The notes beneath the pieces are model-generated. The model made no database searches, had not been told where the DNA came from, and was given only the letters and a program-made list of their open reading frames with translations. Positions 3,513 through 56,841 of a DNA stretch of 64,000 bases are shown here, one piece after another. Position numbers and translations under genes: made by a program. The number at the start of each line of letters is the position of its first letter. Within the stretch, counting starts at the first letter, position 1. Source of the DNA: Deltaproteobacteria bacterium (GTDB lineage: Bacteria > Desulfobacterota > Binatia > UBA12015); assembly GCA_029262355.1 (NCBI GenBank), contig JAJCZO010000163.1, positions 1 through 64,000 on the forward strand. The letters run 5' to 3'.

Positions 3513-3530
3513 GGGGTAGAACGCTCGGCG

Positions 3531-39321: not shown

Positions 39322-39803
39322 GGCTCCTCTTTGAGTATGAACGCCCGGTTCGTTCCGAGCAACGTGTCGCGGCCCGGGCGCAGCCGGACCTCCCTTCGTG
39401 CGGTAGCAACACGTTTGGTCGAGCTTTAGGCCCTCGAAGTTCTCGTCCCGGTTCCCGGTCGTCTCGGGGGCCCTGAGGAGGGGGTGGCCGGCCGGCGAAG
39501 TCCCGACGGCCACGGTGGTTCGATCGACGGCGGACGCCGTCCCAGGAAGGTCTTCGGATGTCTCTGTTTCTTCCGTCGTGCGCATTCGACCTATCTGCAC
39601 GATGGGTGAAAGAGGCTCGGCAGTCGTCGTCAGGCGATGTCGTCGGAAAACGGAGTCCGGAGAAACCGTCCGGCGCCTTGATGTCGGGCGAGACGATTTG
39701 TCACTCGCGATGTCAGAAAAATTTGTGCTTTAGGGCGGCCAGCAGGTCGTCGATTACCGCACTAGGCACGGCTGTGCAGTTAGGGCTTGCCTGGACCGAC
39801 GCG
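39322..39803. other. Non-coding region between slp and the glycan operon
   Basis: 482 bp between divergent genes. No convincing gene was found; the short open frames lack family matches. It should carry the promoters of slp (leftward) and the glycan operon (rightward). A perfect 16-base palindrome sits at 39526-39541, and an A/T-rich patch (AAAAATTTGTGCTTTAG near 39716-39734) stands out from the GC-rich surroundings. TTGTCA at 39698-39703 is a possible -35 box with no good -10 partner. Confidence 0.5.
39526..39541. promoter_or_regulatory. Perfect palindrome upstream of the glycan operon
   Basis: GACGGCGGACGCCGTC has two 7-base arms around GA. It could be an operator for a dimeric regulator or a short hairpin. 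At this GC content such palindromes occur by chance fairly often, so the assignment is weak. Confidence 0.25.
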
Positions 39804-41660
39804 ATGACGAACCGCAGGGCGACACGACGAACGGACAGCCTCGATCGGAGATCGAGCGGGCAGCTCTCGACCCTGCTGCACGTCGCCACCGTACCGTTGA
39901 CCCTTCGATTCCTGCGCGATCAGATCTGCCGTCTGCCAGCGGAAGGACTCGTGCCGCATGTCGCATCGGCACCCGGTGACGCCGATGAGCTGGCCCACTT
40001 CGAGCGGACGGAACGGGTTTTCACGCATCCCGTGCCCATGACGAGGAAAGTCAGCCCGTTTCGGGACCTGCGTTCCCTGATCCATCTCAGCGCGCTCGTG
40101 CAGCGCCTCGCGCCGACGGTGGTGCACGCACATACGCCGAAAGCGGGGTTGCTCGGCATGGTGGCGGCCGCGGTGACGGCCACGCCGGTTCGGATCTATC
40201 AGCTGCGGGGTTTGCCCCACCTCACGAGCGGCAGAGTCGGGGGGGCGATCCTCCGTGCCGCCGACCGGCTCGCATGCCGCCTGGCCCACCGAGTGATCTG
40301 CGTCAGTCCCTCGCTCCGTGCTCAGGCCATCACCGACGGAGTCTGCGCGCCGGCCAAGATCGAGGTTCTGGGCTCCGGAAGTGGCCAGGGGGTGGATCTT
40401 GGGCACTTCGCCCCGGAACGATTCGACACCGATGCGCGAGGTAGGCTCCTCGATGGGCTCGGTATCCCCCACGACGCCGAGATTCTTGGATTCGTCGGTC
40501 GTCTGGTGCGCGACAAGGGCGTGGTGGAGCTTGCGGCCGCCTGGGCCGGGCTGCGCGTGGACTTCCCGAAGGCACACCTGCTGATGCTGGGGCCTTCCGA
40601 GGATCGGGATGCGACTCCGGCCGCGGTCCTGCGCGATCTGCGGGCGGATTCGCGGGTCCACGTTCTTGGCCTCGTGGCCGATCCCGCTCCGTACTACGCG
40701 ATCATGGACGTCGTTGCGCTGCCCACCGCGCGCGAGGGCTTCCCCAACGTGCTGCTCGAGGCGGCGGCCATGGAAGTGGCGGTCGTCGCGAGCGCCGTCG
40801 ACGGGTGCACGGATGCCGTACGACACCGCGAAACGGGATGGCTCGTGGAGCCCGGTTCCGCAGCTGCCGTTCGCGAGGCACTCGAGCGCTACCTTCGCGA
40901 TCCCGAGCTACGCGCTCGGCACGGCCGAGCGGCCCGCGCTCGGGTAGAGGCCGAGTTCTCCCAAGACGTCATGACTGCGCGTGTCCACGCGCGGTACCGG
41001 ACGCTGGTGCGCTCGGTGCCGCGGTTGCGGCGTCGGCGCCGTGCGCGAAATGCGTGGATGAAGCGAGCGTTCGACGTGTGGGCCGCCGCCGCCGCGCTCG
41101 CGCTCTCGTTGCCGATCGCTCTCGTCGTCGCGGTCGTCGTGGCCGCGTCGATGGGCCGTCCGATCTTCTTCCGGCAACTGCGGCCAGGGCTCCACGGGAA
41201 GATCTTTCGTGTTTGCAAGTTTCGCACGATGAGTGACGAGCACGATCGCGACGGCATGCTCCTGCCGGATGAACGCCGGCTGGGACGCGTGGGGCGCTGG
41301 CTTCGCTCGACCGGTCTCGACGAGTTGCCACAGCTCTGGAGCGTTCTGCGGGGCGACATGAGCATCGTCGGGCCGCGGCCCCTTCTTGTGCAATACCTCG
41401 ATCGCTACACGCCGGACCAGGCGAAGCGACACGACGTCAAGCCAGGGCTCACTGGATGGGCCCAGATCCACGGCCGAAACGCGCCACCCTGGGACGTCAA
41501 ATTCGCCTACGATCAGTGGTACGCCGAGCACGGCTCCTTTCTGCTGGATCTCTGGATTCTGGCCAGAAGCGCGACCGTCCTTCTGAGCCGTGCTGGCGTT
41601 GGACATGGTGACCTCGACACGATGCCGGAGTTCCAAGGCAGCGCACCGGGAGGACTCTGA
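39804..41660 (+). CDS. Fusion of GT4 glycosyltransferase and PglC-type phosphoglycosyl transferase
   Basis: Bifunctional enzyme for building a lipid-linked glycan at the inner membrane, about 618 residues. The N-terminal 410 residues form a GT4 (GT-B fold) glycosyltransferase: VVHAHTPKAGLLG, GSGSGQGVDLGHFAPE, FVGRLVRDKGVVELA, and the donor-site Glu pair in TAREGFPNVLLEAAAM. The C-terminal 200 residues are a small monotopic phosphoglycosyl transferase of PglC type: membrane hairpin MKRAFDVWAAAAALALSLP, CKFRTM, the catalytic Asp-Glu in GLDELPQLW, and GDMSIVGPRPLL with LTGWAQIHGR. In Campylobacter these are separate PglA and PglC proteins. The start is uncertain; the frame is open back to 39558. 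pglD starts 2 bp after the stop. Confidence 0.9.
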   Translation: MTNRRATRRTDSLDRRSSGQLSTLLHVATVPLTLRFLRDQICRLPAEGLVPHVASAPGDADELAHFERTERVFTHPVPMTRKVSPFRDLRSLIHLSALVQRLAPTVVHAHTPKAGLLGMVAAAVTATPVRIYQLRGLPHLTSGRVGGAILRAADRLACRLAHRVICVSPSLRAQAITDGVCAPAKIEVLGSGSGQGVDLGHFAPERFDTDARGRLLDGLGIPHDAEILGFVGRLVRDKGVVELAAAWAGLRVDFPKAHLLMLGPSEDRDATPAAVLRDLRADSRVHVLGLVADPAPYYAIMDVVALPTAREGFPNVLLEAAAMEVAVVASAVDGCTDAVRHRETGWLVEPGSAAAVREALERYLRDPELRARHGRAARARVEAEFSQDVMTARVHARYRTLVRSVPRLRRRRRARNAWMKRAFDVWAAAAALALSLPIALVVAVVVAASMGRPIFFRQLRPGLHGKIFRVCKFRTMSDEHDRDGMLLPDERRLGRVGRWLRSTGLDELPQLWSVLRGDMSIVGPRPLLVQYLDRYTPDQAKRHDVKPGLTGWAQIHGRNAPPWDVKFAYDQWYAEHGSFLLDLWILARSATVLLSRAGVGHGDLDTMPEFQGSAPGGL

Positions 41661-41662
41661 GC

Positions 41663-42319
41663 GTGCGCGAGTTGCTGATCTTCGGCGCCGGCGGGCACGG
41701 CAAGGTGCTGCTCGATACGGCCCGCGCTGCTGGATGGAGGGTCGTTGCCGTTGCCGACGGTGCGGAGGAACGCCGCGGAGACACGCTACTGCGATCGTCG
41801 ATCAACGTGATTGGCGTCGAGGAGGCGGTGGGTTGTTGCAGGGAGCGGGGAGCTCTTGCGGTCGTCGCCGTCGGCGACAATCGTCGCCGCGCCGTCCTCT
41901 TTGCGAGTTTCGTCGTCGCCGGAGTGGAGATGGCGAGTGTGGTTCATCCGGGGGCGCAGGTGTCCGCCCACGCGAAGATCGGAGCCGGCGCGGTCATTTA
42001 CGCCGGAGCCATCGTCCAGACCGGTGCCTGTGTCGGTGACGACGTGATCCTCAATACGGCGAGCAGTGTGGATCACGACGGTGTCGTGGAGGCGCACGCT
42101 CACGTGGGTCCGGGAGCCCACCTCGGCGGCTGCGCGCGGATCGGCCCGGGAGCGCATCTCGGTCTCGGTGCCCTGATTCGAGATGGGGTCTCGGTCGGAG
42201 AGTGGAGCGTGGTCGGTATGGGTGCGGTGGTCGTCGCCGACGTCCCCGATCACGTCGTTGCGTACGGCTGTCCGGCCTCCGTCGTCGGTCCGAACCCCGC
42301 GCAGGTGCAAGCAGCATGA
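41663..42319 (+). CDS. pglD: PglD/NeuD-type sugar N-acetyltransferase
   Basis: Acetyl-CoA-dependent transferase that acetylates the 4-amino group of a UDP-sugar. The 218-residue protein has the N-terminal Rossmann-like part (ELLIFGAGGHGKVLLDTA) that binds the UDP-sugar. The left-handed beta-helix of hexapeptide repeats runs from about 90 to 205 (VHPGAQVSAHAKIGAGAVIY). The catalytic His lies in SVDHDGVVEAHAHVGPGAHL, as in PglD. The start is GTG at 41663. It overlaps the next gene by 4 bp (ATGA). With the PglE- and PglF-like enzymes it completes a UDP-diacetylbacillosamine-type route; product identity is inferred. Confidence 0.88.
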   Translation: MRELLIFGAGGHGKVLLDTARAAGWRVVAVADGAEERRGDTLLRSSINVIGVEEAVGCCRERGALAVVAVGDNRRRAVLFASFVVAGVEMASVVHPGAQVSAHAKIGAGAVIYAGAIVQTGACVGDDVILNTASSVDHDGVVEAHAHVGPGAHLGGCARIGPGAHLGLGALIRDGVSVGEWSVVGMGAVVVADVPDHVVAYGCPASVVGPNPAQVQAA

Positions 42320-43446
42320 AGCAGATTCTTCTCTCGCCACCGCACATGTCGGCCATCGCGCGAAGCCTTCTTCTGGACGCCTTCGACTCGAACTGGGTGG
42401 CCCCGGAAGGCCCACACGTCGAGGCGTTCGAGCGGGAGAACGCGGCCCTTGCGCGCCGCGAGAGAGCCGTGGCGCTCACCAGCGGAACCGCGGGTCTTCA
42501 TCTCTCCTTGGTGCTGTTGGGAATGGAGCCGGGCGACGAGGTGTACACGTCGACCCTGACGTTTGCCGCGACGGCCAACGCGATTCGGTACGTCGGGGCG
42601 ACCCCGGTCTTCGTCGATAGTGACCCCGCGAGTTGGAACATGGATCCGGACCTGCTGGCCGAGGCGCTTGCGGACGCAGATCGCCGCGGGAAGCTTCCGA
42701 AGGCGGTCCTGGTGGTCGATCTCTACGGCCAGTGCGCCGAGTACGATCGAATTCTTCCGGTGTGCGAGCGCTACGGCATTCCGGTGATCGAGGACGCCGC
42801 GGAGGCACTGGGCGCGCGCTATCAAGCGCGCCCCGCCGGTAGCTTCGGCGACCTCTCCGTCTTCTCCTTCAACGGCAACAAGATCATCACCGCCGGTGGC
42901 GGGGGGATGCTCGTCACCGATCGTCACGACTGGGCCGATCGCGCTCGATTCCTGGCGCGCCAGGCGCGCGATCCCGCGCCGCACTACGAGCACTCTACCC
43001 TGGGCTTCAACTATGCGATGAGCAATCTCCTCGCGGCCACGGGGCGTGGCCAGCTGCAGGTGTTGCCCCAGCGCGTTCGTGCTCGTCGCGCGAACAACGC
43101 CTTCTACCGAGACGCCCTGAAGTGCGCCCCGGGCTTGGAGTTCATGCCGGCGCTTCCCGACAGCGAGAGCACCTTCTGGCTCTCGGTGATGATGGTCGAC
43201 CCCGAGGCCTTCGGAGCCACCCGTAACGACGTTCGCGAGAAGCTCGCCGGTCACGACATCGAGTCGCGTCCGGCCTGGAAACCCATGCACCTTCAGCCTG
43301 TCTATCGAGATTGCCGCTTCATCGGGGGCGGGGTTGCGGAGGCGATCTTCGAGGCCGGGCTCTGCCTACCGAGCGGATCCGACCTCACCACACCGCAGCT
43401 CGAAGTGGTGTGCGATCTGATTCTGAGAACCGGAAGAGGTCTGTAG
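42316..43446 (+). CDS. pglE: DegT/DnrJ-type sugar aminotransferase (PglE-like)
   Basis: PLP-dependent aminotransferase converting a UDP-4-keto-sugar to the 4-amino sugar, 376 residues. The family features are LTSGTAGLHLSLVLLGMEPG for PLP phosphate binding, VYTSTLTFAATANAIRYVG, VDLYGQCAEYDRI and IEDAAEALGARY. The PLP Lys is in SFNGNKIITAGGGGMLVT, nearly as in PglE. The end, RPAWKPMHLQPVYRD, is typical. It overlaps pglD by 4 bp; pglF starts directly after its stop. The upstream open frame (to 42202) lies inside pglD and was not used. Confidence 0.92.
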   Translation: MKQILLSPPHMSAIARSLLLDAFDSNWVAPEGPHVEAFERENAALARRERAVALTSGTAGLHLSLVLLGMEPGDEVYTSTLTFAATANAIRYVGATPVFVDSDPASWNMDPDLLAEALADADRRGKLPKAVLVVDLYGQCAEYDRILPVCERYGIPVIEDAAEALGARYQARPAGSFGDLSVFSFNGNKIITAGGGGMLVTDRHDWADRARFLARQARDPAPHYEHSTLGFNYAMSNLLAATGRGQLQVLPQRVRARRANNAFYRDALKCAPGLEFMPALPDSESTFWLSVMMVDPEAFGATRNDVREKLAGHDIESRPAWKPMHLQPVYRDCRFIGGGVAEAIFEAGLCLPSGSDLTTPQLEVVCDLILRTGRGL

Positions 43447-45462
43447 ATGACTCCAACACGCGCACGCGCGATGCACGACCTGGTCGACCTGAGTCTGCTG
43501 TTCGCGGCTTTCGTCGGGGCCTATCTCTTGCGGTTCGACAGCGGGATTCCCCCCGGGCACGTGGAGTTTGGCGTCGCCGCGGCACCGTACGTGATTCTGC
43601 TGCAATACTGCATGTTGATTGGCGCCGGCGTGCCCCGCTTTGCCTGGCGCTTCGTCGGGATACGGGAGGCGGGGCGGATTCTCCTTGCGACGGGACTCGC
43701 GACGGCGGTTCTTCTATTCGTCCGCTTCGCCGTCCCGTGGTTGGCGCCGTCGGTGCCGATTTACCCGGTGTTGCCGCTGGGCGTGATCGTCTTCGACGGA
43801 GTTCTGGCATTCCTGTTCGTGGTGGGCATCCGAGTGGCTCGGCGCGGCGTTCTGGACATGTGGGCGCGCCGGTCCCGCGCGGTCCCGACGCGCCAGGCCC
43901 CGACGCTCTTGATCGGCGCCGGGGAGGTCGGTGCGCGGGTTGCGCGCGAGCTGCTTGCGCGTCCTGAGCTCGGCATGCGCCCCATCGGCTTCGTCGACGA
44001 CGACCCGCTCAAGCAGGGTCTGGACATCAATGGACTTCCGGTACTCGGGGTGACAGCGGCAATCGCGGAGCTGGCCGACGATCGGCTGGTGCGGCGCGCG
44101 GTCATCAGCATCGCGAACGTCGATGGTTCGACGGTTCGTCGGCTGAAAGAGCTCTGCGAGACCGCGGGCGTGAAGCCCCAGATCGTGCCGAGCCTCCACG
44201 AGCTCCTCATCGACGAGATCGACGTCATCCGGATGCGCGACGTGTCGATCGAGGATCTTCTGCGGCGTGAGGTCGTTTCTCTCGACGAGGCATCGGCGCG
44301 CCGGTCCTACGCGGGCAAAGTGGTTCTGGTGACGGGGGCCGCAGGCTCCATTGGCTCCGAGATTTGTCGGCAGATCGCCCGGCTTGGCCCCGCGAAGCTG
44401 ATTCTCGCCGAACGGGCCGAACCCAGCCTGTTCGCGGTCGACCGTGAGCTCCGCAAGGCGGGATATGGCCATCTGCTGGAGGCGGTCCTCTGTGATGTTT
44501 GCGATGCCGACCGGATGCGGATGGTGTTCGAAAAGCACCGACCGCAGGTGGTCTTTCACGCGGCCGCCCACAAGCACGTGCCGATGGTCGAGGCGAACAT
44601 CTCCGAGGCGGTGCGGAATAACGTGTTCGGAACCCGGGTGGTCGCCGATGCGGCACACGACCTCGGAGTGGAAGCCTTCGTCCTGATCAGCTCGGACAAG
44701 GCCGTGAATCCGACTTCAATCATGGGTGGCACCAAGCGACTGGCCGAGATGTACCTGCAGGCGCGGTGGCAGGACTCCAAGACCCGATTCATGGCGGTGC
44801 GCTTCGGCAATGTCCTCGACTCGGCTGGCTCGGTCTTGCCGATCTTCCGCGAACAGATCGCGGCTGGTGGTCCGGTCACGGTCACGCACTCCGCGATGAC
44901 CCGCTACTTCCTGACCATCCCGGAGGCGACCCAGCTCGTTCTCGAGGCTGGTGCGATGGGCGAGGGGGGCGAGGTCTTTCTGCTCGACATGGGCGAGCCG
45001 GTACGAATCGCCGACCTCGCCAGCGACCTGATCCGCCTCTCCGGGTTCGAGCCGGGCAAGGACATCGAGATCGAATACACCGGGATTCGCCCCGGTGAGA
45101 AGCTATTCGAAGAACTCAGCTTCGACCCTGAGAACATGGCACGAACGCAGAACGAGAAGGTGTTCGTCGCCAAGCTGATGTCGGTTCGGTACGCGTACAT
45201 GCAGAGGAGCCTGCGCCTGTTACGTGATGTTCTGTACTCACGCGACGAGGCAGACATCCGGCGTCTGCTCCACAGTCTCATTCCCGAGATGCAGGTGGGT
45301 CCCCCGGTTGGGCTCGGCGAGTTGTCGGCGCTGTTCGGCGAGCACGAGGCCGAGGATGCGACGACGGAAGAGCCGGCGGCGGAGGATCGTCGCTTGCGTC
45401 TCCGACTCGTGGAGAGCGGCGTGCGCGGCGCGTCGCCTCGCTCGGGGCACGCGGCATCCTAA
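43447..45462 (+). CDS. pglF: Membrane UDP-sugar 4,6-dehydratase (PglF/WbpM/CapD type)
   Basis: NAD-dependent 4,6-dehydratase acting on UDP-GlcNAc, first step of the bacillosamine-type pathway. The 671-residue protein has four N-terminal membrane segments (about 12-32, 45-65, 78-98, 108-128). A first Rossmann domain follows (LLIGAGEVGARVARELL), then the catalytic SDR domain with VLVTGAAGSIGSEICRQI near 295. HAAAHKHVPMVEANISEAV and the active-site SSDKAVNPTSIMGGTKRLAE come next. The last 60 residues are an acidic/Arg-rich extension. Order in the operon is PGT fusion, pglD, pglE, pglF, all coupled. The next gene's ATG shares a base with its TAA. Confidence 0.93.
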   Translation: MTPTRARAMHDLVDLSLLFAAFVGAYLLRFDSGIPPGHVEFGVAAAPYVILLQYCMLIGAGVPRFAWRFVGIREAGRILLATGLATAVLLFVRFAVPWLAPSVPIYPVLPLGVIVFDGVLAFLFVVGIRVARRGVLDMWARRSRAVPTRQAPTLLIGAGEVGARVARELLARPELGMRPIGFVDDDPLKQGLDINGLPVLGVTAAIAELADDRLVRRAVISIANVDGSTVRRLKELCETAGVKPQIVPSLHELLIDEIDVIRMRDVSIEDLLRREVVSLDEASARRSYAGKVVLVTGAAGSIGSEICRQIARLGPAKLILAERAEPSLFAVDRELRKAGYGHLLEAVLCDVCDADRMRMVFEKHRPQVVFHAAAHKHVPMVEANISEAVRNNVFGTRVVADAAHDLGVEAFVLISSDKAVNPTSIMGGTKRLAEMYLQARWQDSKTRFMAVRFGNVLDSAGSVLPIFREQIAAGGPVTVTHSAMTRYFLTIPEATQLVLEAGAMGEGGEVFLLDMGEPVRIADLASDLIRLSGFEPGKDIEIEYTGIRPGEKLFEELSFDPENMARTQNEKVFVAKLMSVRYAYMQRSLRLLRDVLYSRDEADIRRLLHSLIPEMQVGPPVGLGELSALFGEHEAEDATTEEPAAEDRRLRLRLVESGVRGASPRSGHAAS

Positions 45463-46733
45463 TGGAACCGGAGCGCCACTGTTGGACCGCCGAGCGCCTG
45501 AGTGAACAGCTCGCGAGGCTCGAGGTCCGGTGGCGGCGTGCCGACGGGGTCTACGCGACGACCTACCGCGGTCCCGACTGCATCGATCCCACCCCGCTCG
45601 TCGCCGACCTGGGAGACGTCGCGAGCTTTCTCGTGAAGTTCGACCGCGCCGAGGCGGCCCTCGAACAGGCGCGCTGCGCGCGAGCTCACCTGTGGCGCGG
45701 CCTCTTCGCGGCGCAAGGGCGCGTGCGGCTCTTCGAGAACCACGACTACCTGCTGGGGCTGATCGACCTGTACGAGGCGACCGGGGAGCCCTGGCTCCAG
45801 GGAGAGATCGAGTCGGCGATTGGAACCCTCGTTGGGTGCTTCGAGCGCGACGGTCTCCTCGTCGACGAGTACGACGGCACTCGTCGTTGGATCGAGTTCG
45901 CGAGCCCTTTCAACGGCGGCTTCATCGAGGGATTGATCGATCTGCACGCGATGACCGGGGAGGAGCGATTGCTCGAGATCGCCTCGCGCTGGGCCGAAGC
46001 ATGGATCGCGACCCCGTACTTCACCAAGCATGGTTTGTTCGCGCGGTTCAACACGCCTATGTGGCCGGCGGTGGGGTACCTCAGCAGCCGGTTCAGTAGG
46101 CACGGCCCCGTACGGCTCTTCAAGGACAACACGAACATGGTCTGGGCGCTGATGGCCCTGTACCGGGTTCGCCCCACTGAGGCACTGCGACGCGCGTTGG
46201 TGCAGTTCGTGGACGGGTACGAGCGCCTGCTTTGGAACGGTGGCCTCGTGCGCCAGGCGGTGGCGGATGACGCGGCAGAGTTTCGACTCGTGCCGTCGGC
46301 GTTCTCCGTGGACCTGCTGTGCGATCTCACGGATTTGGGGCTGATCCCCGAGCGCACCGTCCAGTTGGCACGGGGAGTGGCTGAGGAGTGCCTCAGGCGC
46401 CAATGGCCGGGGGGGGCGTTCCCGGTCTCGGATCATGATGGTTTCGATCACGTTGATGTCGCGACCGACATCGGTATTGCGCTGTGGAAGCTCTCCGAGC
46501 TCACCGGCGAGCAGCGTTACGCGGAGGCCGCTCGCAGGAGCTGGGAGTCGGTGCAGGCCACACACTGGACCGAAGACGGCCTCGTGCTGTCGGTGGATTC
46601 GACGGGCCATCCGGTCGACGACCGCATCGTCGTGAAGTACCAGGCGCTGGCGCTCAAGTCGGCGATCCTCGAACGCTCGTCGGTCGGGATCTACGAAGAC
46701 CGGGATCTCTGGAGCGTGCTGCGTGATCGCTGA
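45462..46733 (+). CDS. Predicted helical-barrel glycan-processing protein
   Basis: Cytosolic 423-residue protein without a clear family assignment. The pattern of paired helices with aromatic and acidic residues at turns (LFENHDYLLGLIDLYEATGE; SPFNGGFIEGLIDLHAMTGE; LFKDNTNMVWALMALYR; VDVATDIGIALWKLSELTGE) is that of an (alpha/alpha)6-type six-hairpin barrel. Such barrels occur in glycoside hydrolases, lyases and sugar epimerases. No catalytic residues can be named. No signal peptide is present. It is the last gene of the rightward glycan operon, coupled to pglF by a 1-bp overlap, which strongly suggests a role in the same sugar pathway. It converges on the Wzc gene, 14 bp away. Confidence 0.75.
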   Translation: MEPERHCWTAERLSEQLARLEVRWRRADGVYATTYRGPDCIDPTPLVADLGDVASFLVKFDRAEAALEQARCARAHLWRGLFAAQGRVRLFENHDYLLGLIDLYEATGEPWLQGEIESAIGTLVGCFERDGLLVDEYDGTRRWIEFASPFNGGFIEGLIDLHAMTGEERLLEIASRWAEAWIATPYFTKHGLFARFNTPMWPAVGYLSSRFSRHGPVRLFKDNTNMVWALMALYRVRPTEALRRALVQFVDGYERLLWNGGLVRQAVADDAAEFRLVPSAFSVDLLCDLTDLGLIPERTVQLARGVAEECLRRQWPGGAFPVSDHDGFDHVDVATDIGIALWKLSELTGEQRYAEAARRSWESVQATHWTEDGLVLSVDSTGHPVDDRIVVKYQALALKSAILERSSVGIYEDRDLWSVLRDR

Positions 46734-46747
46734 CGGGCCGGATCGGA

Positions 46748-48970
46748 TCAGGTCCCGGCGCTCGGGTCGGCTTCGGGATAGCTCGTCGAATAGTAGGTGT
46801 CGTCGTAGTCGGTCGCGTACAGCGGGCTCTCCGGATCGACTCGGTTTAGGATGACGCCCAGCATCCTGGCGTGGGCCTGCTCGAGGCGCTTGCGGGTGCG
46901 TTGCAGGAGCGGGCGCGGCGTGCGGTGGGCATCGACGACCAAAATTACCCCGTCGACGAACGGGGCGAGGACGACTGCGTCGTTGATGGCCAAGGCGTTC
47001 GACGCGTCGATGATCACGTAGTCGTAGTCGTGCGAGACGTCGCCGAGAAGGTCCTGCATCGATCGGGAGCCCAGCAGCTCTGTCGGGTTGGGCGGGATCG
47101 TTCCCGCGGGGAGCAGAGACATGTTCTCGACGGCCGTCGGATAAATCACGTTCATCAGGCTCTCTTGGCCTGCCAGTACGTGCGTCAGGCCGCGTGGCGC
47201 CTCGACGCCGAGTCGGCGGTCACAGGTTGGACGCCGGAGGTCGGCATCGACTAGGAGCACTCGGGCGCCCAGGCGTGCGAAGAGAATCGATAGATTGACG
47301 CTGCTGGTCGTCTTCCCCTCGGCCGGCTGCGCGCTGGTGATCAGGATCGTCTTTGGTGGTGAGTCTGACTGCGAAAGAAGGATGGATGTCCGCAGGGTGC
47401 GGTACGCCTCGGTCACCATCGAGAACGGATTTTTGGTGACAACGAGTCCTGTGTATTCTTCCTGGGGAGGCAGAGCCATCGGGTCGGGCTCGATCCCATC
47501 GGTCCCACGGACCCGCTCGAAGTCGGGAACGGTGCCCAAGTGGGCGAGCTGCAGGACTCGGCCGACATCGTCCGCGTTCTTCAGGGATCCGTCGAGCAGA
47601 TCTCGTCCGATCACGAACGCGAGTCCGAGAAGGAGCCCGATCGCCCCCGCCAGCTCCAAGATTCGGGTCGTTTGGGGCTCCGACGGCTTGGGCGGCGGGA
47701 CCGACTTCTCCACCATGAATACGTTCGACGGCTGTGCCGAGGCGACGCCCATTTCCTTCATCCGCTGAAGCACGCTGTCGTACAGCGTCTGGTTGCCGTC
47801 CGCCTCGCGCTTCAGAATTGCGTATTGGACTGCTTCATCCTTGAAGCCCATGACCTTGGCCTTCTCGGCTTCGGTCTGGGCTCGTAGTCGGCGCACTTTT
47901 TCCTTGGCGCCGAGATACGAAGACTCGATGGACTGGATCGTATTCTTCACTTCCTGGTCGAGCCGCGCCCTCATCTCCGCAAGGCGTTCTTCGACGTGGC
48001 GAACCCCCGCGTAGGTCGGCTTGAAGCGCGAGCGCATCTCGTCGTACTCCTGCTCGAGCGATCCGAGCTGGACTTTGAGAGCGCGAATCAAGTGGCTTCG
48101 ATTGACCTCGGGAAGGGCGTGGTACTCGCGGATCTGGATGAGGTGCATCTCGGCTTCGAGGGCGATCATGTCGGTCTCGGCGTCGGAGAGGCGATTGTTG
48201 AACGCGGTGAGGCGGCTGATGATCAGATTCTCGCGTTCGTCGATCGACGAGATGATTCCGGCCTGGCGCCGGTAGTCGTTCAGTGCGGCTTCGGATTGCT
48301 CGAGGCGCATCTTCAGGCCGACGAGCTTTTCCTCGAGAAATCCCTTCGCGTCGTCGCTGGCCTGCGCGCGAAGCCGAAAAGACTGCTGGATGTAGGCCTC
48401 GACGTGCTGATTGGCGATCTTCGCGGATAGCTCGGGGTCCTTTGTCGTCATGTAGATGTTGACGAGTCGGGTGCCTTCGACGGGCTTGATCATCAGCGCG
48501 TCGAGGTAGATCGAGGCCGTGGCAAGATTGGCGCGCTCGGGATCTCTGTCGTAGCCGTTCGCCGCGGAAAGGCCGACGAACGTCGGGTCGCGCGCCAAAT
48601 CCAGGGAGCGAATCACGTCGAGCGCGAGGTCGCGATTCTTCAAGATCGCGTATTGGGTCTTGTAGTAGTTCTTCTCGTTCCCCACCTCGCCCAGAACGTC
48701 GCGGACGTCGAGAATAGGGGAGGGGCGCCGCTCGATCAGGATCTTGGCGCGCGCGGTATACATCGGGCTCTTCAGCGAGACGTACACGCCTGCAAGCGCG
48801 ATCCCGGCGAGCAACATGGCCAGGACGATCCAGCGGCCGTTCTTGAGCGCGCGGATCGCATCCTTCGGCCGCCAGGCGAGGAGTCCCTCCGGAGTCTCGA
48901 TGAGAGTATCCGGTGGCAGGAACGGGCCCGGGATGGGGCTGGGGGTCGTCGGTGCGGGGGGAGAGGCCAC
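46748..48970 (-). CDS. Wzc-like polysaccharide co-polymerase fused to BY-kinase
   Basis: Inner-membrane protein controlling chain length and export of a surface polysaccharide, 740 residues. The Wzz domain has a first membrane helix (about 48-68, WIVLAMLLAGIALAGVYVSL), a long periplasmic coiled-coil part (about 195-395), and a second helix near 440-460. The cytosolic BY-kinase has Walker A SAQPAEGKTTSSVNLS, Walker A' LLVDADLRRPTCDRRLG and Walker B YDYVIIDA. The C-terminus is a tyrosine cluster (LYATDYDDTYYSTSYPEA), the usual autophosphorylation site. It is transcribed after the Wza gene with a 12-bp gap. Confidence 0.93.
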   Translation of the reverse strand: MASPPAPTTPSPIPGPFLPPDTLIETPEGLLAWRPKDAIRALKNGRWIVLAMLLAGIALAGVYVSLKSPMYTARAKILIERRPSPILDVRDVLGEVGNEKNYYKTQYAILKNRDLALDVIRSLDLARDPTFVGLSAANGYDRDPERANLATASIYLDALMIKPVEGTRLVNIYMTTKDPELSAKIANQHVEAYIQQSFRLRAQASDDAKGFLEEKLVGLKMRLEQSEAALNDYRRQAGIISSIDERENLIISRLTAFNNRLSDAETDMIALEAEMHLIQIREYHALPEVNRSHLIRALKVQLGSLEQEYDEMRSRFKPTYAGVRHVEERLAEMRARLDQEVKNTIQSIESSYLGAKEKVRRLRAQTEAEKAKVMGFKDEAVQYAILKREADGNQTLYDSVLQRMKEMGVASAQPSNVFMVEKSVPPPKPSEPQTTRILELAGAIGLLLGLAFVIGRDLLDGSLKNADDVGRVLQLAHLGTVPDFERVRGTDGIEPDPMALPPQEEYTGLVVTKNPFSMVTEAYRTLRTSILLSQSDSPPKTILITSAQPAEGKTTSSVNLSILFARLGARVLLVDADLRRPTCDRRLGVEAPRGLTHVLAGQESLMNVIYPTAVENMSLLPAGTIPPNPTELLGSRSMQDLLGDVSHDYDYVIIDASNALAINDAVVLAPFVDGVILVVDAHRTPRPLLQRTRKRLEQAHARMLGVILNRVDPESPLYATDYDDTYYSTSYPEADPSAGT

Positions 48971-48982
48971 GGACGCCGTCCT

Positions 48983-50056
48983 TCAGAAGATCGGCACTGT
49001 CGCGCCGACCCGGAACAGAGTCGTGAAGAAGGCGTAAAAGCCGTACGCAGCGAGCTTCCCGCCGGTTCCGTCGATCTGGATCACGTCTCCATCATGGAGC
49101 AGGGGGTCCAGCTCATTGCCCGCCTGGATGTCGTCGATGTTCGCGAGGAGAACGGCTTTCTCGTTGTCGTCCTCCCGATAGACCTTCACTTCGTTCACGT
49201 CGGCCGGGAACAACGGGCCGCCAGCACCCGCGATCGCACCGAGCAGACGCATGCCTGTAGCGAGGCGGTACGTTCCGGGCTTCTCGATCCAGCCCTGCAC
49301 GTAGATTTGCCCCCCGCCGAGAGCGACGATCACGTCGCCCGGTCGGACCGGGACGCTCAGCACGATCGGGCGAGCCGAGTGGTTGAGTTTGGCGAGGTCG
49401 ATCTCGATCGTGCCGGGGGTGTCGCGAAGCTTGGCGGTGGATGTCGACTCCGTCACCGCCGCCGAGATTGGGCTCGCCGCGTGGATCGGGATCGTGCCCG
49501 TCGGAACGAACAGGATCTTGTCCGACGCCTGATCGGTGAGGCCGCCGGCGGCGGCGATCATGTCGAGAATCGTCTCGTTCGTACCCTTCAGGTCGTAGGT
49601 GCCCGCGGACTTCACCATCCCGACCACCGCGACCTGGCGGTTGTGGTACTCTCGGATCAGCAGCTCGATCTCCGGGTCGTGCATGTAATGGCGAAGTCGC
49701 CGGATCAGATCGGTCGTGAGGGCTCCCTCGGACAGACCCGCCGCCGGTACGTCTCCGAGGACGGGTAGTGAGATCGTCCCGCTCGCAGAAACGCGGACCG
49801 CCACCTCCCGAAGCTCGGGCATGTCCGCGACCGACAACTCCACGAGATCACCGGGCCCGATGGGATATTCCACGTATCCATCCTGGAGTGTTCGGAGCTT
49901 GTAGAGGTGTTCGAGGTGCGTGAGGTCCTCCGAGGTCATCGGGGACTGCGGATCGGATCGGCTGCCAGGGCGAGGGGGCTGGGCTACGGAGCTCGCACAG
50001 GCCGAAACAGTCAGGGCGACGACGAGGCTGGCGCACGCAAGAGAGACCTTCTCCAT
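48983..50056 (-). CDS. Wza-like polysaccharide export outer membrane lipoprotein
   Basis: Outer-membrane channel for capsule or exopolysaccharide export, 357 residues. From ATG 50056 it begins with a lipoprotein signal ending VALTVSAC (lipidated Cys20). The Poly_export domain is YPIGPGDLVELSVADMPELR, followed by VSASGTISLPVLGDVPAAGL. SLBB-type domains follow: REYHNRQVAVVGMVKSAGTY and GGQIYVQGWIEKPGTYRLA. The frame is open to 50206, but the lipoprotein start fixes the N-terminus. It is divergent from pilB, with 176 bp between the starts, and forms a two-gene unit with the Wzc gene. Confidence 0.92.
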   Translation of the reverse strand: MEKVSLACASLVVALTVSACASSVAQPPRPGSRSDPQSPMTSEDLTHLEHLYKLRTLQDGYVEYPIGPGDLVELSVADMPELREVAVRVSASGTISLPVLGDVPAAGLSEGALTTDLIRRLRHYMHDPEIELLIREYHNRQVAVVGMVKSAGTYDLKGTNETILDMIAAAGGLTDQASDKILFVPTGTIPIHAASPISAAVTESTSTAKLRDTPGTIEIDLAKLNHSARPIVLSVPVRPGDVIVALGGGQIYVQGWIEKPGTYRLATGMRLLGAIAGAGGPLFPADVNEVKVYREDDNEKAVLLANIDDIQAGNELDPLLHDGDVIQIDGTGGKLAAYGFYAFFTTLFRVGATVPIF

Positions 50057-50232
50057 CGCTTGTGTATCGGCGCCTGCCCGCTGAGAATATAGGCCTTTCG
50101 TTGGGCCTTGATGCTGCGCAAACGCCATGGCGCTCGACATGTGGCCCGACGGCGCCGCGCATGTGGGGACAGGCGGTGGGTCGAGGTCTTGGCGCTTTGC
50201 CAACAAGGAACGCGCTCGATGTCGCCTACGAC

Positions 50233-52185
50233 ATGGCGTCCACGGAGAATGGCGCTACGAATTTGGGGGCCGCACCGGATTTCGTAAAGCGGGGCGCACG
50301 GCTCGCCGATATGCAGGCCAGATACTCTCCTCGACGTTGGTTCCGTTCCGGGGCCGAGGAGCGCGTGCGCGCCAGGCCCCAGCGCGTGCCTTCCGACTTA
50401 CGGGCAGCGGAGAACTACTTGGGTTTGGGTGGCGTAGAAGCCTTCACGAGAGAGTCGAACGAGCCGGGTGGCGGCAAGGCCCAAGCTGTCGGCAGTCGCA
50501 TCGGAGACCTCCTGCTCAAACAGGGGGTCATCAGTTCGTCCGACCTTCGCGTCGCGACGAGCCGGCTGCGCGAGGCGGGAGGCGCGCTCACGACCTGGAT
50601 CGTGAAGCTCTGCGGGATTCCCGAAGCGGAACTCCTCACGGTTCTTCAAGAGGAGTATCACCTCCCGGTGGTCGACCCGGCGGCGCTCGACATCGCGCCC
50701 GAGGTGATCGACGTTCTGCCGGCCGTTCTCGCCAACAAGTATCACGTCGTTCCGGTCAGCCTCAGCCGCACGACGCTGACGCTGGCCATGGCTGACCCGT
50801 CGAACCTCGTGGCGATCAACGAGGTGAAGTTCCTCACGGGTTTCGACGTTCGCGCTGCCATCGCGGGTCCCGGATCGATCGAGCGCGCGATCGAGCGCTA
50901 CTACGAGCACAACGTCAACTACGGCGACGTTCTCTCGGAACTCGGCTCGGAGGAGATGGAGGTCATCCGCGGCGAGGAAGACCTCGATCTCAAGCAGCTG
51001 GAGAAGGCGACGGAAGAAGCGCCCGTCGTCAAGCTCGTCAACGCGCTGTTGACCGACGCGATCAAGAAGCGGGCTTCGGATATCCACATCGAGCCGTACG
51101 AGAAGGTCCTTCGCGTCCGGTTCCGCATCGACGGTGTGTTGTACGAGATCATGCAACCGCCGGTGAAGCTCAAGAACGCGATCATCTCGCGTATCAAGGT
51201 CATGGCGTCGCTCGATATCGCCGAGCGGCGGTTGCCACAGGACGGACGCATCAAGGTCAAGATGGGCCACGGGCGGGAGATGGACTTGCGCGTATCCACG
51301 TTGCCCACCTTGTTCGGAGAGAAGGTCGTTCTCCGACTGCTCGATAAGGGCGGCGTCCAGCTCGACCTGAAGACTCTGGGCTTCGAGCCCGAGTCGCTCG
51401 GAAAGTTCGAGGAGGCGATTCTGCGACCCTACGGAATGATCCTCGTCACTGGCCCGACGGGATCGGGCAAGACGACTACGTTGTACTCGGCGCTCTCCGA
51501 GTTGAATAAGATCACGACCAACATCTCGACCGCCGAGGATCCCGTCGAGTACAACCTCGTCGGGATCAACCAGCTGCAGGTGCACGAAGATATCGGCCTG
51601 AACTTCGCCTCGGCGCTTCGCGCCTTCCTCCGTCAGGATCCCGACGTCATCATGGTCGGTGAGATTCGTGATTTCGAGACGGCGGAGATCGCCGTGAAGT
51701 CCGCACTGACGGGGCACCTCGTGCTTTCGACGGTCCACACCAACGACGCGCCGTCGACCATCAACCGGATGCTCAACATGGGCATCGAGCCGTTTCTGAT
51801 CGCGTCGTCGGTGAACCTCATCATGGCTCAGCGCCTCGCGCGCGTGGTGTGCCCCAAATGCCGGGAGCCCCAAGAGCTGGCTGCGGCGGTGATGGTCGGT
51901 CTCGGCGTGCCGGAAGACGAGGCGAAGCCGATCACCTCGTATCACGGCACGGGCTGCCAGAACTGCGGAGATACCGGGTACCGCGGCCGAACGGCTCTCT
52001 ACGAGATCATGACGATGAGTGATGCCCTACGGGAGCTGATCTTGTCTGGAGCCTCCTCGACGGAGTTGAAGCGCCAGGCGATGGACGACGGCATGAAAAC
52101 GCTGCGTCAGAGTGGGGTCGAGAAGATCGTCGAAGGGCTGACGACGGTCGAAGAGGTGATGCGCGTCACCATGGCCGACTCCTGA
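50233..52185 (+). CDS. pilB: Type IV pilus extension ATPase PilB
   Basis: Cytosolic hexameric motor ATPase that drives pilus assembly. From ATG 50233 it is 650 residues. The GspE N-domain begins at VGSRIGDLLLKQGVISSSDL, so about 85 residues lie before it, longer than usual; a later start such as ATG 50311 is possible. The ATPase core has Walker A GPTGSGKTTTLYSAL, the Asp box IHIEPYEK, Walker B LRQDPDVIMVGEIRD, and the His box LSTVHTNDAPSTINRM. The zinc tetracysteine is CPKC with CQNCGDTGYRGR. It heads the pilus locus and diverges from the Wza gene. Confidence 0.93.
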   Translation: MASTENGATNLGAAPDFVKRGARLADMQARYSPRRWFRSGAEERVRARPQRVPSDLRAAENYLGLGGVEAFTRESNEPGGGKAQAVGSRIGDLLLKQGVISSSDLRVATSRLREAGGALTTWIVKLCGIPEAELLTVLQEEYHLPVVDPAALDIAPEVIDVLPAVLANKYHVVPVSLSRTTLTLAMADPSNLVAINEVKFLTGFDVRAAIAGPGSIERAIERYYEHNVNYGDVLSELGSEEMEVIRGEEDLDLKQLEKATEEAPVVKLVNALLTDAIKKRASDIHIEPYEKVLRVRFRIDGVLYEIMQPPVKLKNAIISRIKVMASLDIAERRLPQDGRIKVKMGHGREMDLRVSTLPTLFGEKVVLRLLDKGGVQLDLKTLGFEPESLGKFEEAILRPYGMILVTGPTGSGKTTTLYSALSELNKITTNISTAEDPVEYNLVGINQLQVHEDIGLNFASALRAFLRQDPDVIMVGEIRDFETAEIAVKSALTGHLVLSTVHTNDAPSTINRMLNMGIEPFLIASSVNLIMAQRLARVVCPKCREPQELAAAVMVGLGVPEDEAKPITSYHGTGCQNCGDTGYRGRTALYEIMTMSDALRELILSGASSTELKRQAMDDGMKTLRQSGVEKIVEGLTTVEEVMRVTMADS

Positions 52186-52193
52186 GCTAGGTG

Positions 52194-52224
52194 CGCTGCA
52201 CCCATGCGCAGCGACTAGCGTTTT
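52194..52224 (+). terminator. Weak terminator-like hairpin after pilB
   Basis: CGCTGC (52194-52199) pairs with GCAGCG (52208-52213), with an 8-base loop, and TTTT follows at 52221-52224. It lies 9 bp after the pilB stop. The stem is short and the T-run brief, so partial termination at most. Confidence 0.3.
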
Positions 52225-52291
52225 CGATTGAGTGCCTCAGCGTCAGAATGGTACTTCAAGGTGAGTACCAACCGACTCTGGGAGATTGCTC

Positions 52292-54106
52292 ATGGCCACA
52301 TCGATTCGCTCTATCCTCCGTTCTTCGTGTCTCGGATTCTCTGCTCTGCTGATCGCCGGACCGGTCCTCGCGGCCGACCCCGTCAAGGTCGGTGCCGAGT
52401 TGCAGGTGAGCGACGGCGTGGACAACTACGCCTATACGCCGCGCGTCGCATCGGACCCTGCCGGCAACTTTCTCGTGGCGTGGCAGGACTCGGATAATGG
52501 CGTCATCAAGGCGCACGCGTTCTGGTCGACCGGGAACTCCCAGGGCCCAGTGTTCCAGATGAGTGACTTGGCCGACGATATCTATGTCTCGGTTGGGAAC
52601 TTCGACGAGGACGAGCTCCTCGACGTCCAGGCCGACGCCGCCGGCAACTTCGTAGTCGCGTACAACGCCTACGATCAGGATATTGGCTACGCCTACTATG
52701 GCGCTTGCTACGGGTCGCCGTGTATCTGGACGAAACGCCGCAACGCGAATGGAACCGTTGCGCCGGCGTCGTTCATCGTCGGTGATCCGCGGCTCAACAC
52801 GTATTACGCAGGGCCTGGCTACTACAACCAGACCGCGAACCCCGAGCTCGCCGTGGACGGTGAGGGCAACTTCGTCGTTGCCTGGGAGGGCTACGATCAG
52901 AGAGCGAACCTCGAGCTCGATGAGGGAGTTTGGGCGCGTAAGCTCGTGGGGGTCGGCCAGATCAACGGAGGGCAGTTCCGAGCAAACGAACACACCGATG
53001 GCTACCAGGGGGACGGCGGTGAGCTCGATGTCGCAGCCGACGCCGAAGGCAACTTCGTCATCGTCTGGCAGGATGAGAACTACACATACGGTGGTATCGT
53101 GTTCCGGCAGTTCGACAAGGCGAAGAACCCGATCGGGACCCAGACCGCGATCGTCCCCACGGGCGACGGCACCGATCCGCACGTAGCGCAGCTTCCCGAC
53201 GGCACCTTCATGGTCGTTTGGGTAGACGACTTCGGCGGCGTCGACGGTCAGGTGTTTAGCTCGGGCGGCGTGGGCGTGGGGCCGACATTCGAGGTTACAC
53301 CGGACGGGGAGTACCCGGAGATCGCCGCTTCGGCGGCCGGATCGTTCATCGTCGTCTTCGACGGCGACACGGGCCTGCAGGGCCGCACCTTCGACGCCAC
53401 CGGGACGGCGACGAGCAACGAGTTCGAGATCGACCCGACCGGTTTCACACCGCACGTTTCGGCAGCGGAGGACGGAAACTTCGTCGTGACGTGGAACGAT
53501 GGCGGTGGGTACACCGCCGCGCAGCGCTTCCAGGTCGCGACGCCGGCCGTTCAGGACATTCCGCTCGTAGGTAAGGTCGCCGTCCTGTCGAACAAGGACC
53601 CCGATGATTTCGAGAAGAGCAAGGGCTCGTGGAAAGCTTCGGGCGACACGATCGTGTCGCCCCTGCGTGGCTCGGTCAATGACCCGCGCTGCAACGGGGA
53701 TCCCGTCGGTACCGTAAAGGCGACGGCGCGATTCCTGAGTACGACGTCTGGGCAAGACCACACGTTCGATCTGCCGTGCCAAAATTGGTCGGTGACGGGC
53801 GGTGACAAGGTCAAGTCCGTCTTGAAGCGTGGCTATAAGTACAAGGATTCCAAGCGTGTGGACGGCCCGTGCAACTCGGTGAAAATCAAGGGCACGAAGA
53901 GCCTGAGCGTGAGCTGTAAAGGTAAGTCCGGGGTCGCCGCGTTCCCCTACGACTTGGTATTCGGGTCGAGTCAGGGGGAGGTGACGGCGGTTCTCGAAAC
54001 CGGTCTCATCAAGCACTGCGCTCAGTTCCAGGCGCTCTTCGACGGCAGCGACGGCAAGAAGTACAAGGGCAAGTCGCTGCTTGCGCCGCCTGTGTCCTGC
54101 CCGTAG
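52292..54106 (+). CDS. Secreted beta-propeller-like protein with Cys-rich C-terminal domain
   Basis: Exported 604-residue protein of unknown function. A signal peptide (about 1-27, ending GPVLA) is followed by seven repeats, each with a D/S-x-x-G-N/S-F-x-V-x-W/Y/F core. The cores centre near residues 59, 119, 192, 253, 304, 351 and 395 (for example DPAGNFLVAWQD, GEGNFVVAWEGYD, AEDGNFVVTWND). Seven such units fit a seven-bladed beta-propeller. Residues 425-604 form another domain with six Cys (467, 496, 527, 542, 576, 603), rich in Lys, Gly and Ser. The ATG follows GGGAG at 7 bases. It lies between pilB and pilT, so it may be a pilus-linked adhesin or surface protein; this is inferred from position only. 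Confidence 0.85.
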   Translation: MATSIRSILRSSCLGFSALLIAGPVLAADPVKVGAELQVSDGVDNYAYTPRVASDPAGNFLVAWQDSDNGVIKAHAFWSTGNSQGPVFQMSDLADDIYVSVGNFDEDELLDVQADAAGNFVVAYNAYDQDIGYAYYGACYGSPCIWTKRRNANGTVAPASFIVGDPRLNTYYAGPGYYNQTANPELAVDGEGNFVVAWEGYDQRANLELDEGVWARKLVGVGQINGGQFRANEHTDGYQGDGGELDVAADAEGNFVIVWQDENYTYGGIVFRQFDKAKNPIGTQTAIVPTGDGTDPHVAQLPDGTFMVVWVDDFGGVDGQVFSSGGVGVGPTFEVTPDGEYPEIAASAAGSFIVVFDGDTGLQGRTFDATGTATSNEFEIDPTGFTPHVSAAEDGNFVVTWNDGGGYTAAQRFQVATPAVQDIPLVGKVAVLSNKDPDDFEKSKGSWKASGDTIVSPLRGSVNDPRCNGDPVGTVKATARFLSTTSGQDHTFDLPCQNWSVTGGDKVKSVLKRGYKYKDSKRVDGPCNSVKIKGTKSLSVSCKGKSGVAAFPYDLVFGSSQGEVTAVLETGLIKHCAQFQALFDGSDGKKYKGKSLLAPPVSCP

Positions 54107-54498
54107 CCCGGGCGGTTCGAGTGATCTCACCCGCCTGGCCAGGCGTTTTCGCATCGGTCGGGGGGCGGGGACGGCGGCTTCGTCGGCCGGCCCAGTGAGG
54201 AGTCTCTCACCCATCGGGCTTCCGCCGGGCCGGCGGCTCCGCGCAAGGTTGCTCGACCAGGATTCGATGGGGGCAGTCCTAATGCCCGCGCTGTAGGCTT
54301 CGCTGTGCGAAGCATCTCGCTGCGCGCTCCTAGCGAGATGATGCATGCGTTGTTGCGTCTGAAGGCCCGCTAGAGGTCAAGCCGCGCCCGAAAACCGCCG
54401 AACGTCTTCGTAAGAACGACCGGTGAGTGGTGGTACCGCGTTTGCGTGGGCGCATGCGGTGATCCACGCGACAGCGTCGTTGGGGAGGTTCTGAGCGC
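54107..54498. other. Non-coding region before pilT with stacked hairpins
   Basis: 392 bp without a convincing gene. Two adjacent hairpins stand out. GCTTCGC (54297-54303) pairs with GCGAAGC (54307-54313). Sharing its last base, CATCTCGCT (54313-54321) pairs with AGCGAGATG (54332-54340). They may end transcription of the propeller gene, or be a remnant of another dispersed repeat. A possible sigma-54 promoter lies at 54431-54446, and the pilT ribosome binding site GGGGAGG at 54482-54488. Confidence 0.5.
54431..54446 (+). promoter_or_regulatory. Possible sigma-54 (-24/-12) promoter for pilT-pilC-regulator
   Basis: TGGTACCGCGTTTGCG has GG and GC spaced by exactly 10 bases, and it matches TGG-x-AC and TTGC of the consensus. 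It ends 52 bases before the pilT start. The match is less complete than that at pilA, and GG-N10-GC alone is common in GC-rich DNA. Confidence 0.4.
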
Positions 54499-55602
54499 AT
54501 GCAGATGCACGAGTTGTTTCACGAGATGGCAGGGCACGAGGCGTCGGATTTGCACATCACATCGGGAGCGCCTCCGATGATTCGCGTACATGGCTCGGTT
54601 ACCCCGCTGCCGTACGACCCGCTTGGTGCGAACGACACGAAGCAGCTCTGCTATAGCGTTCTTACTGAGCAGCAGAAGAAGAAGTTCGAGGAAGAAAACG
54701 AGCTCGACTTCTCCTTCGGCGTCCAGGGCCTCTCTCGCTTTCGTGGCAATCTGTTCGTCCAGAAGGGCGCCGTCGGCGCAGTATTTCGGGCGATTCCGCA
54801 CACCGCACCGCCTCTGAAATCGTTGGGGCTGCCGGCCACAGCCGAGGCGCTGATTCAGCTCCCCCGCGGTCTGATTCTCGTCACCGGGCCCACGGGTAGC
54901 GGTAAGTCGACGACGATGGCCGCGATGGTCGACGAGATCAATGAGACTCGGGCGGAACATATCGTCACGATCGAGGATCCGATCGAGTTTCTGCACGACC
55001 ACAAGCGCTGCATCGTGAACCAACGCGAGGTCTTCGCCGATACGCAGACGTTTACGCAGGCGTTGAAGCACATTCTTCGTCAGGATCCCGACGTCGTTCT
55101 CATTGGCGAAATGCGAGACCTCGAGACAATCGAGGCGGCTTTGACCATCGCCGAGACCGGTCACCTCGTGTTCGCGACATTGCACACGAACTCGGCCGTC
55201 CAGACCGTAAACCGCGTGATCGACGTTTTCCCCGCTCATCAGCAATCGCAGGTGCGGGCGCAGCTCTCGCTGGTCGTCGAAGCCGTGATCTCGCAGACGC
55301 TTCTGCCTCGTGTCGATGGACGCGGGCGGGTCATGGCGTGTGAGCTCATGATTCCAAACCCCGCCATTCGGAATCTCATCCGCGAGGAGAAGGTCCATCA
55401 GCTCTACTCACAGATGCAGGTCGGCCAGAAGAAATACGGCATGGTCACGCTGTCGCAGTCACTCCTCGACATGGTCTCACGCAACATCATCTCGCAGGAG
55501 ACGGCGCTGAACGCGGCGACCGAGCCTGAAGAGCTGAAGCAGATGTTGGGACTCGGCCAGGATGGCTCGGCGCAGGCCGGCCGTATGATCCTCGCAAAGT
55601 AG
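54499..55602 (+). CDS. pilT: Type IV pilus retraction ATPase PilT
   Basis: Hexameric motor that depolymerises pili and powers twitching, 367 residues. It starts with the family opening (ASDLHITSGAPPMIRVHG). Walker A is VTGPTGSGKSTTMAAM, the Asp box follows with VTIEDPIEFLH, Walker B is LRQDPDVVLIGEMRD, and the His box is TGHLVFATLHTNSAVQ. The AIRNLIRE motif essential for retraction is present as NPAIRNLIREEK near 290. The ATG at 54499 follows GGGGAGG; ATG 54505 is an alternative. pilC begins 15 bp after the stop. Confidence 0.96.
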   Translation: MQMHELFHEMAGHEASDLHITSGAPPMIRVHGSVTPLPYDPLGANDTKQLCYSVLTEQQKKKFEEENELDFSFGVQGLSRFRGNLFVQKGAVGAVFRAIPHTAPPLKSLGLPATAEALIQLPRGLILVTGPTGSGKSTTMAAMVDEINETRAEHIVTIEDPIEFLHDHKRCIVNQREVFADTQTFTQALKHILRQDPDVVLIGEMRDLETIEAALTIAETGHLVFATLHTNSAVQTVNRVIDVFPAHQQSQVRAQLSLVVEAVISQTLLPRVDGRGRVMACELMIPNPAIRNLIREEKVHQLYSQMQVGQKKYGMVTLSQSLLDMVSRNIISQETALNAATEPEELKQMLGLGQDGSAQAGRMILAK

Positions 55603-55617
55603 GCGGGAGCGATATCG

Positions 55618-56837
<1,220 letters not shown>

Positions 56838-56841
<4 letters not shown>

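Follow-up and report, generated by a model that had tools for sequence, protein, structure and literature searches.

A GT4-phosphoglycosyl transferase fusion heads a probable diacetylbacillosamine operon in a Binatia bacterium

Introduction

The first two steps of lipid-linked glycan assembly are usually carried out by separate membrane proteins. In a stretch of DNA from a Binatia bacterium (GCA_029262355.1, contig JAJCZO010000163.1, positions 1-64,000; hereafter the window, meaning all 64,000 nucleotides) one gene joins a GT4 glycosyltransferase to a PglC-type phosphoglycosyl transferase (PGT), and it is followed by PglD-, PglE- and PglF-like genes. This operon probably makes UDP-N,N'-diacetylbacillosamine (UDP-diNAcBac), which would serve as the starting sugar of an exopolysaccharide of the Wzx/Wzy type or of a similar surface glycan.

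Several described systems resemble parts of this locus. The Campylobacter proteins PglC, PglA, PglF, PglE and PglD are the nearest solved homologues for most parts of the operon and their chemistry equals that predicted here, but PglC and PglA are separate proteins and the pathway feeds the oligosaccharyltransferase PglB. Neisseria PglB is also a diNAcBac PGT fused to a pathway enzyme; its partner is a C-terminal acetyltransferase, whereas the partner in the window is an N-terminal GT4. Glycosyltransferase (GT) fusions are reportedly among the common types of bifunctional monotopic PGT (Bi-PGT) named by O'Toole et al. in 2021. In the Bi-PGT class, a functional domain is attached to the N- or C-terminus of the PGT core (PMC10942596). 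The window fusion, with its extra enzymatic domain, falls within this definition and does not differ in kind, its GT4 half belonging to one of several subfamilies that occur in such fusions. In Bacillus subtilis, EpsC, EpsN and EpsM (which supply UDP-diNAcBac), EpsL (the PGT) and EpsD (a GT4 adding GlcNAc) have been shown biochemically to act in exopolysaccharide synthesis (PMC10653937). The window shares these five predicted activities, likewise for a probable exopolysaccharide, but has the PGT and GT4 as one protein with the GT4 first, and a coupled fifth gene.

The same gene order is found on a plasmid of Deinococcus sp. KNUC1210, where a single-frame GT4-PGT is followed by PglD, PglE and PglF. 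Unlike the window, KNUC1210 has its GT4 in the Campylobacter PglA clade and lacks the fifth gene. Deinococcus sp. NW-56 also has a single GT4-PGT protein, but only a PglD-like gene lies near it, with no PglE or PglF within the 14 kb read. The PGT-GT fusion class, bacillosamine-started exopolysaccharide and the same architecture in public Deinococcus records are already known; no PglA-PglC fusion was described in the literature searched. The GT4-PGT-PglD-PglE-PglF cassette flags probable bacillosamine-started polysaccharides, and we know of none that has been described chemically in the phyla carrying it.

Operon organization

Five co-directional genes between 39804 and 46733 form one operon. 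Its parts are as follows.

39804-41660, plus strand: GT4-PGT fusion, 618 aa, Pfam domains in one uninterrupted frame
39861-40997, plus strand: GT4 glycosyltransferase half of the fusion, E-x7-E (EGFPNVLLE) and GR..K motifs intact
40998-41057, plus strand: Arg-rich linker of the fusion, about 20 codons, VRSVPRLRRRRRARNAW
41058-41657, plus strand: PglC-type monotopic PGT half, with MKR..D start, one reentrant hydrophobic segment, DE dyad, PRP motif and C-terminal F (PEFQG)
41232-41276, plus strand: mobile loop of the PGT half, SDEHDRDGMLLPDER (PglC counterpart: SDERDANGELLPDDQ)
41319-41324, plus strand: catalytic Asp-Glu dyad of the PGT half (GLDELPQL)
41663-42319, plus strand: PglD/NeuD-type sugar N-acetyltransferase, GTG start
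42316-43446, plus strand: PglE/LegC-type aminotransferase
43447-45462, plus strand: PglF-type membrane-bound UDP-GlcNAc 4,6-dehydratase
45462-46733, plus strand: fifth operon gene, 423 aa, probable (alpha/alpha)-toroid sugar-active enzyme

All junctions were read from the DNA. The stop codon of the fusion is separated from the GTG of PglD by 2 bp, PglD and PglE share an ATGA overlap, the TAG of PglE is followed by the ATG of PglF at 0 bp, and PglF and the fifth gene share a TAATG overlap. The first-pass annotation, made from the sequence of the window alone, had described PglF-, PglE- and PglD-like genes coupled behind a GT4-PGT protein, and the Pfam/TIGR domains and tight junctions confirm this. 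It had also delimited the operon as 39804-45462. This span holds for the genes it listed and ends too early, omitting the fifth gene, which by position belongs to the same transcription unit because it overlaps the PglF stop codon.

A single GT4-PGT polypeptide

In one frame, Pfam detects a GT4 module (PF13579/PF13439 and PF00534/PF13692) followed by Bac_transf (PF02397, E 6e-57). The start at 39804 is plausible since homologous GT4s begin about 6-25 residues ahead of the same LLHVATVP motif; an upstream in-frame ATG at 39558 would lengthen the fusion to 700 aa. Inspection of the DNA revealed no clear Shine-Dalgarno sequence ahead of the internal ATG at 41058.

Several relatives have the two genes separate and adjacent, with a short gap or an ATGA overlap, so that one indel could join them, and the assembly is fragmentary. 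An assembly or sequencing artefact uniting two neighbouring genes is nevertheless very improbable, because full-length fusions occur in other genomes and a 56%-identical homologue with an in-frame join of identical length is present in the same genome (contig C167, locus L047). At the join, RTLVRSVPRLRRRRRARNAW precedes MKRAFDV in the window protein and RLLLRSVPRLHRRSRGIGYA precedes MKRGLDI in the L047 copy. As the GT4 remnant of L047 enters the PGT via an equal-length linker, the fusion already existed when these copies diverged and is no product of sequencing error. The earlier claim that a GT4 and a PglC-type PGT are carried on one polypeptide is thus borne out by the single frame and the linker kept in the second copy. 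Channelling of the undecaprenyl diphosphate-linked diNAcBac intermediate between the two halves, proposed at the same time, is only hypothesised.

Substrate of the PGT half

The best solved-structure match of the PGT half is Campylobacter concisus PglC (phmmer, E 6.5e-59; 49% identity). The PF02397 core with its Asp-Glu dyad (DELP) and PRP motif is present. According to PMC10942596, small PGTs that use UDP-diNAcBac are recognisable by two features: a GLLP motif in an extended loop, and a C-terminal Phe belonging to an aromatic box. The PGT half has an LLP-containing loop of the same length as that of PglC and carries such a C-terminal Phe, the one residue of the aromatic box that was compared. 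Five further full PGTs of this genome were compared and lack both the loop motif and the Phe.

Phylogeny agrees with these features. The PGT half falls within an 18-row clade that holds C. concisus PglC, with an ultrafast bootstrap/approximate likelihood ratio test (UFBoot/aLRT) support of 96/93, and the five other PGTs of the genome fall outside it. The phylogenetic check suggested in the first-pass annotation therefore came out in favour of PglC. Judged by loop, C-terminal Phe and clade, the PGT half probably uses UDP-diNAcBac.

Pathway enzymes

The remaining three enzymes carry the expected domains: PF17836 and TIGR03570 (above cut-off) in PglD, PF01041 in PglE, and PF02719 with CoA_binding_3 in PglF. 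In phmmer searches the nearest solved structures are the acetyltransferase domain of Neisseria PglB for PglD (121 bits), C. jejuni PglE for PglE (265 bits) and C. jejuni PglF (WlaL) for PglF. The catalytic residues of all three agree with those of PglF, PglE and PglD, a comparison that the earlier annotation had suggested. PglD has a PglD_N domain and a left-handed beta helix and retains the catalytic His of VDHD; PglE has the DegT fold with its pyridoxal phosphate lysine in FNGNKIIT; and an alignment of PglF (ISSDKAVNPTSIMG) shows that Asp, Lys and Met (not Tyr) of the PglF catalytic positions are retained.

PglF is a long membrane-bound dehydratase with N-terminal hydrophobic segments, features that do not separate PglF from WbpM. 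The first-pass annotation had named placement with WbpM/FlaA1-type enzymes as evidence against diacetylbacillosamine. Such a placement is not discriminating alone because PglF and WbpM yield the same keto sugar, and it is PglE, PglD and the PGT loop that favour diacetylbacillosamine. Supply of a nonulosonic acid (legionaminate or pseudaminate) is highly improbable: LegC and PseC/PseB models do hit PglE and PglF, with scores under their cut-offs, but the operon includes a PGT, and no NeuB-family synthase was found in the genome (93% complete), while 9 of 14 control genomes were positive.

The GT4 half and the distribution of fusions

The GT4 half carries the motifs of retaining GT4 enzymes within the GT4 fold family. 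With a profile built from 11 sequences of close relatives, its best solved-structure match is C. concisus PglA (E 8e-41; the next is 9e-35). In the GT4 tree, PglA sits on a long branch and groups 99/99 with the GT4s of Deinococcus KNUC1210, genome G274 and Sphingobium, and not with that of the window. The earlier label of a PglA-like glycosyltransferase therefore stands at the family level, PglA being the nearest solved structure, and fails at the level of the clade. The second sugar added by this half would probably be a HexNAc.

Among 148 genomes of the class the search found one other true GT4-PGT fusion, in G016 (L048), followed by PglD, PglE and PglF. In the phylum (395 genomes) the GT4 orthologue is frequently encoded on its own. 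In G285, G404 and G447 it immediately precedes a PglC-type PGT; the GT4 that neighbours the PGT in G274 belongs to a different subfamily. PGT frames longer than 600 aa in G060, G146, G147, G145, G064, G095 and G096 were rejected as spurious GC-rich upstream frames with no GT fusion (G145 was checked with Pfam). A contig scan with the fusion as query returned three distant Clostridia GT4s only.

The plasmid collection yielded the two Deinococcus fusions. The NW-56 protein (WP_158679946.1, L106) is annotated as a 581-aa GT4-PGT and aligns with 96% of the window protein at 42% identity. In KNUC1210 (NZ_CP092189.1, L107) a 614-aa GT4-PGT is followed by PglD, PglE, PglF, Wzz and CpsD. The RefSeq start of the KNUC1210 sugar transferase looks wrong: RefSeq annotates only 10039-10668, and the open frame (8824-10668) reaches back to 8824 and includes the PglA-like GT4. 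In Sphingobium yanoikuyae the GT4 and the PGT are two genes, in that order, followed by PglD, PglE, ligase, Wza and Wzc.

The four fusions (window, KNUC1210, NW-56 and G016) are spread over several parts of the GT4 tree. The KNUC1210 GT4 groups with Campylobacter PglA (99/99), the NW-56 GT4 with an unfused Deinococcus GT4 (100/99), the G016 GT4 is placed in a remote group of the family, and the GT4 of the window has unfused relatives around it. Given the well-supported branches, the state must have changed between fused and unfused three times or more. The two Deinococcus fusions are sister to each other in the tree of PGT halves (99/95) but not in that of GT4 halves, so one of them exchanged its partner or was newly fused. 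The GT4 halves of the fusions come from different subfamilies, so that repeated origin of the fusion is probable. With the two genes side by side and in the same direction, losing one stop codon is an easy route to fusion. Recurrent fusion fits with selection and is no proof of it. We give about even chances to the reading that GT4-PGT fusions in bacillosamine polysaccharide operons arose several times, from different GT4 subfamilies, implying that a physical link between the first two lipid-linked steps is selected for. Comparison of these natural fusions with the separate orthologues in sister genomes offers a clean test of direct intermediate handover.

Predicted pathway and end product

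The genes convergent with the operon bear on the end product.

46748-48970, minus strand: Wzc-type chain-length regulator/BY-kinase (Wzz, GNVR and AAA_31 domains), convergent with the operon
48983-50206, minus strand: Wza-type polysaccharide export protein (Poly_export and SLBB domains)

In the predicted order of reactions, PglF would dehydrate UDP-GlcNAc at the membrane, PglE would aminate C4 and PglD would acetylate the new amine. Using its Asp-Glu dyad, the PGT half would then transfer phospho-diNAcBac to undecaprenyl phosphate, and the second sugar would be added with retention by the GT4 half, to which it is fused. Further glycosyltransferases, a flippase and a polymerase would be encoded elsewhere in the genome, and the Wza and Wzc beside the operon would handle export of the polymer and control of chain length. 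An exopolysaccharide is the best reading of the end product because of the adjacent wza and wzc and the syntenic polysaccharide clusters in other phyla. Wzx and Wzy candidates are present on other contigs of the genome; its Wzy_C proteins may be either PglL or Wzy.

Several observations weigh against diacetylbacillosamine exopolysaccharide as the product. No Wzx, Wzy or other GT gene adjoins the operon, and the GT4 half lies outside the C. concisus PglA clade. The match of PglD to perosamine N-acetyltransferase (117 bits) nearly equals that to Neisseria PglB, and the lead of C. jejuni PglE is moderate, with another sugar aminotransferase (7b0m) at 250 bits and perosamine synthase at 240 bits.

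These near-equal scores of perosamine enzymes also speak for a related 4-amino sugar as the product, for example an unacetylated, differently acylated or galacto-configured 2-acetamido-4-amino-6-deoxy sugar, as does the fact that close PglD-type acyltransferases and DegT aminotransferases produce other N-acyl amino sugars. Moreover, the PGT of the decayed L047 copy has LLA, not LLP. A membrane dehydratase of the UDP-GlcNAc type does not, however, suit GDP-perosamine, and the PGT has the diNAcBac loop and C-terminal Phe and lies in the PglC clade, so a related sugar is unlikely.

A glycan for protein glycosylation (pilin or general) instead of exopolysaccharide would follow the precedent of Neisseria pilin and Campylobacter N-glycans, where initiation by bacillosamine is established, and the type IV pilus genes pilB, pilT, pilC and pilR lie 4-13 kb downstream. 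We give this alternative a small probability. Wza and Wzc separate the operon from the pilus genes, the syntenic operons of Deinococcus and Sphingobium are polysaccharide clusters, and the sole STT3-family match in the genome is partial, atypical, located at a contig end and without WWD. In this STT3-like partial membrane protein (L105 1-1866, contig C58) DHH is present and LWPLGH replaces the WWDYG motif. Initiation of an exopolysaccharide with diNAcBac is accordingly the preferred reading of the operon.

As an observation on the neighbourhood, positions 50062-59036 hold pilB, pilT, pilC and PilS/PilR-like type IV pilus genes, which adjoin wza/wzc and the bacillosamine operon.

Fifth gene and second operon copy

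The fifth gene has a weak GH127 match. No homologue was found in the 148 class genomes, the 395 phylum genomes or the plasmid collection, except for the damaged copy in its own genome. A single-sequence structure model is all-helical (pLDDT 51) and resembles alpha/alpha-toroid epimerases and glycosidases. The gene product is a probable (alpha/alpha)-toroid sugar-active enzyme, with the fold match taken as a hint.

The damaged second operon copy occupies L047 8642-12059 on contig C167. Its GT4 is mostly gone, a frameshift disrupts PglD, and PglE has stayed intact (72%). Through an in-frame deletion, about 24 N-terminal PglF codons run directly into the fifth gene at codon 204. This copy could be a decayed paralogue, or a foreign contig binned with the genome or a misassembled one.

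Other fused or degenerate transferases

Contig C94 of the same genome encodes two further unusual proteins. The first (L110 2140-3498, 452 aa) joins a degenerate PGT-like domain, which keeps PRP and has no Asp-Glu dyad, to a WecG/TagA-like glycosyltransferase; its PGT-like domain is possibly a dead PGT serving as a membrane anchor. The second (L110 4243-5721, 492 aa) combines an NDP-sugar pyrophosphorylase-like/beta-helix part with a degenerate PGT-like C-terminus, also without the dyad, and adjoins an intact PGT (3342-4241). Two genomes of the genus encode a fusion of a GT4 with a Caps_synth/DXD glycosyltransferase (L056 10049-12172 and L055 11246-13462). On the NW-56 plasmid, the region downstream of the GT4-PGT fusion (L106 5383-10771) holds genes for an acyl carrier protein, an SDR, an AMP-binding protein, an acyl-protein synthetase and a LuxC-like acyl-CoA reductase, an unusual acyl-modification set for a polysaccharide cluster.

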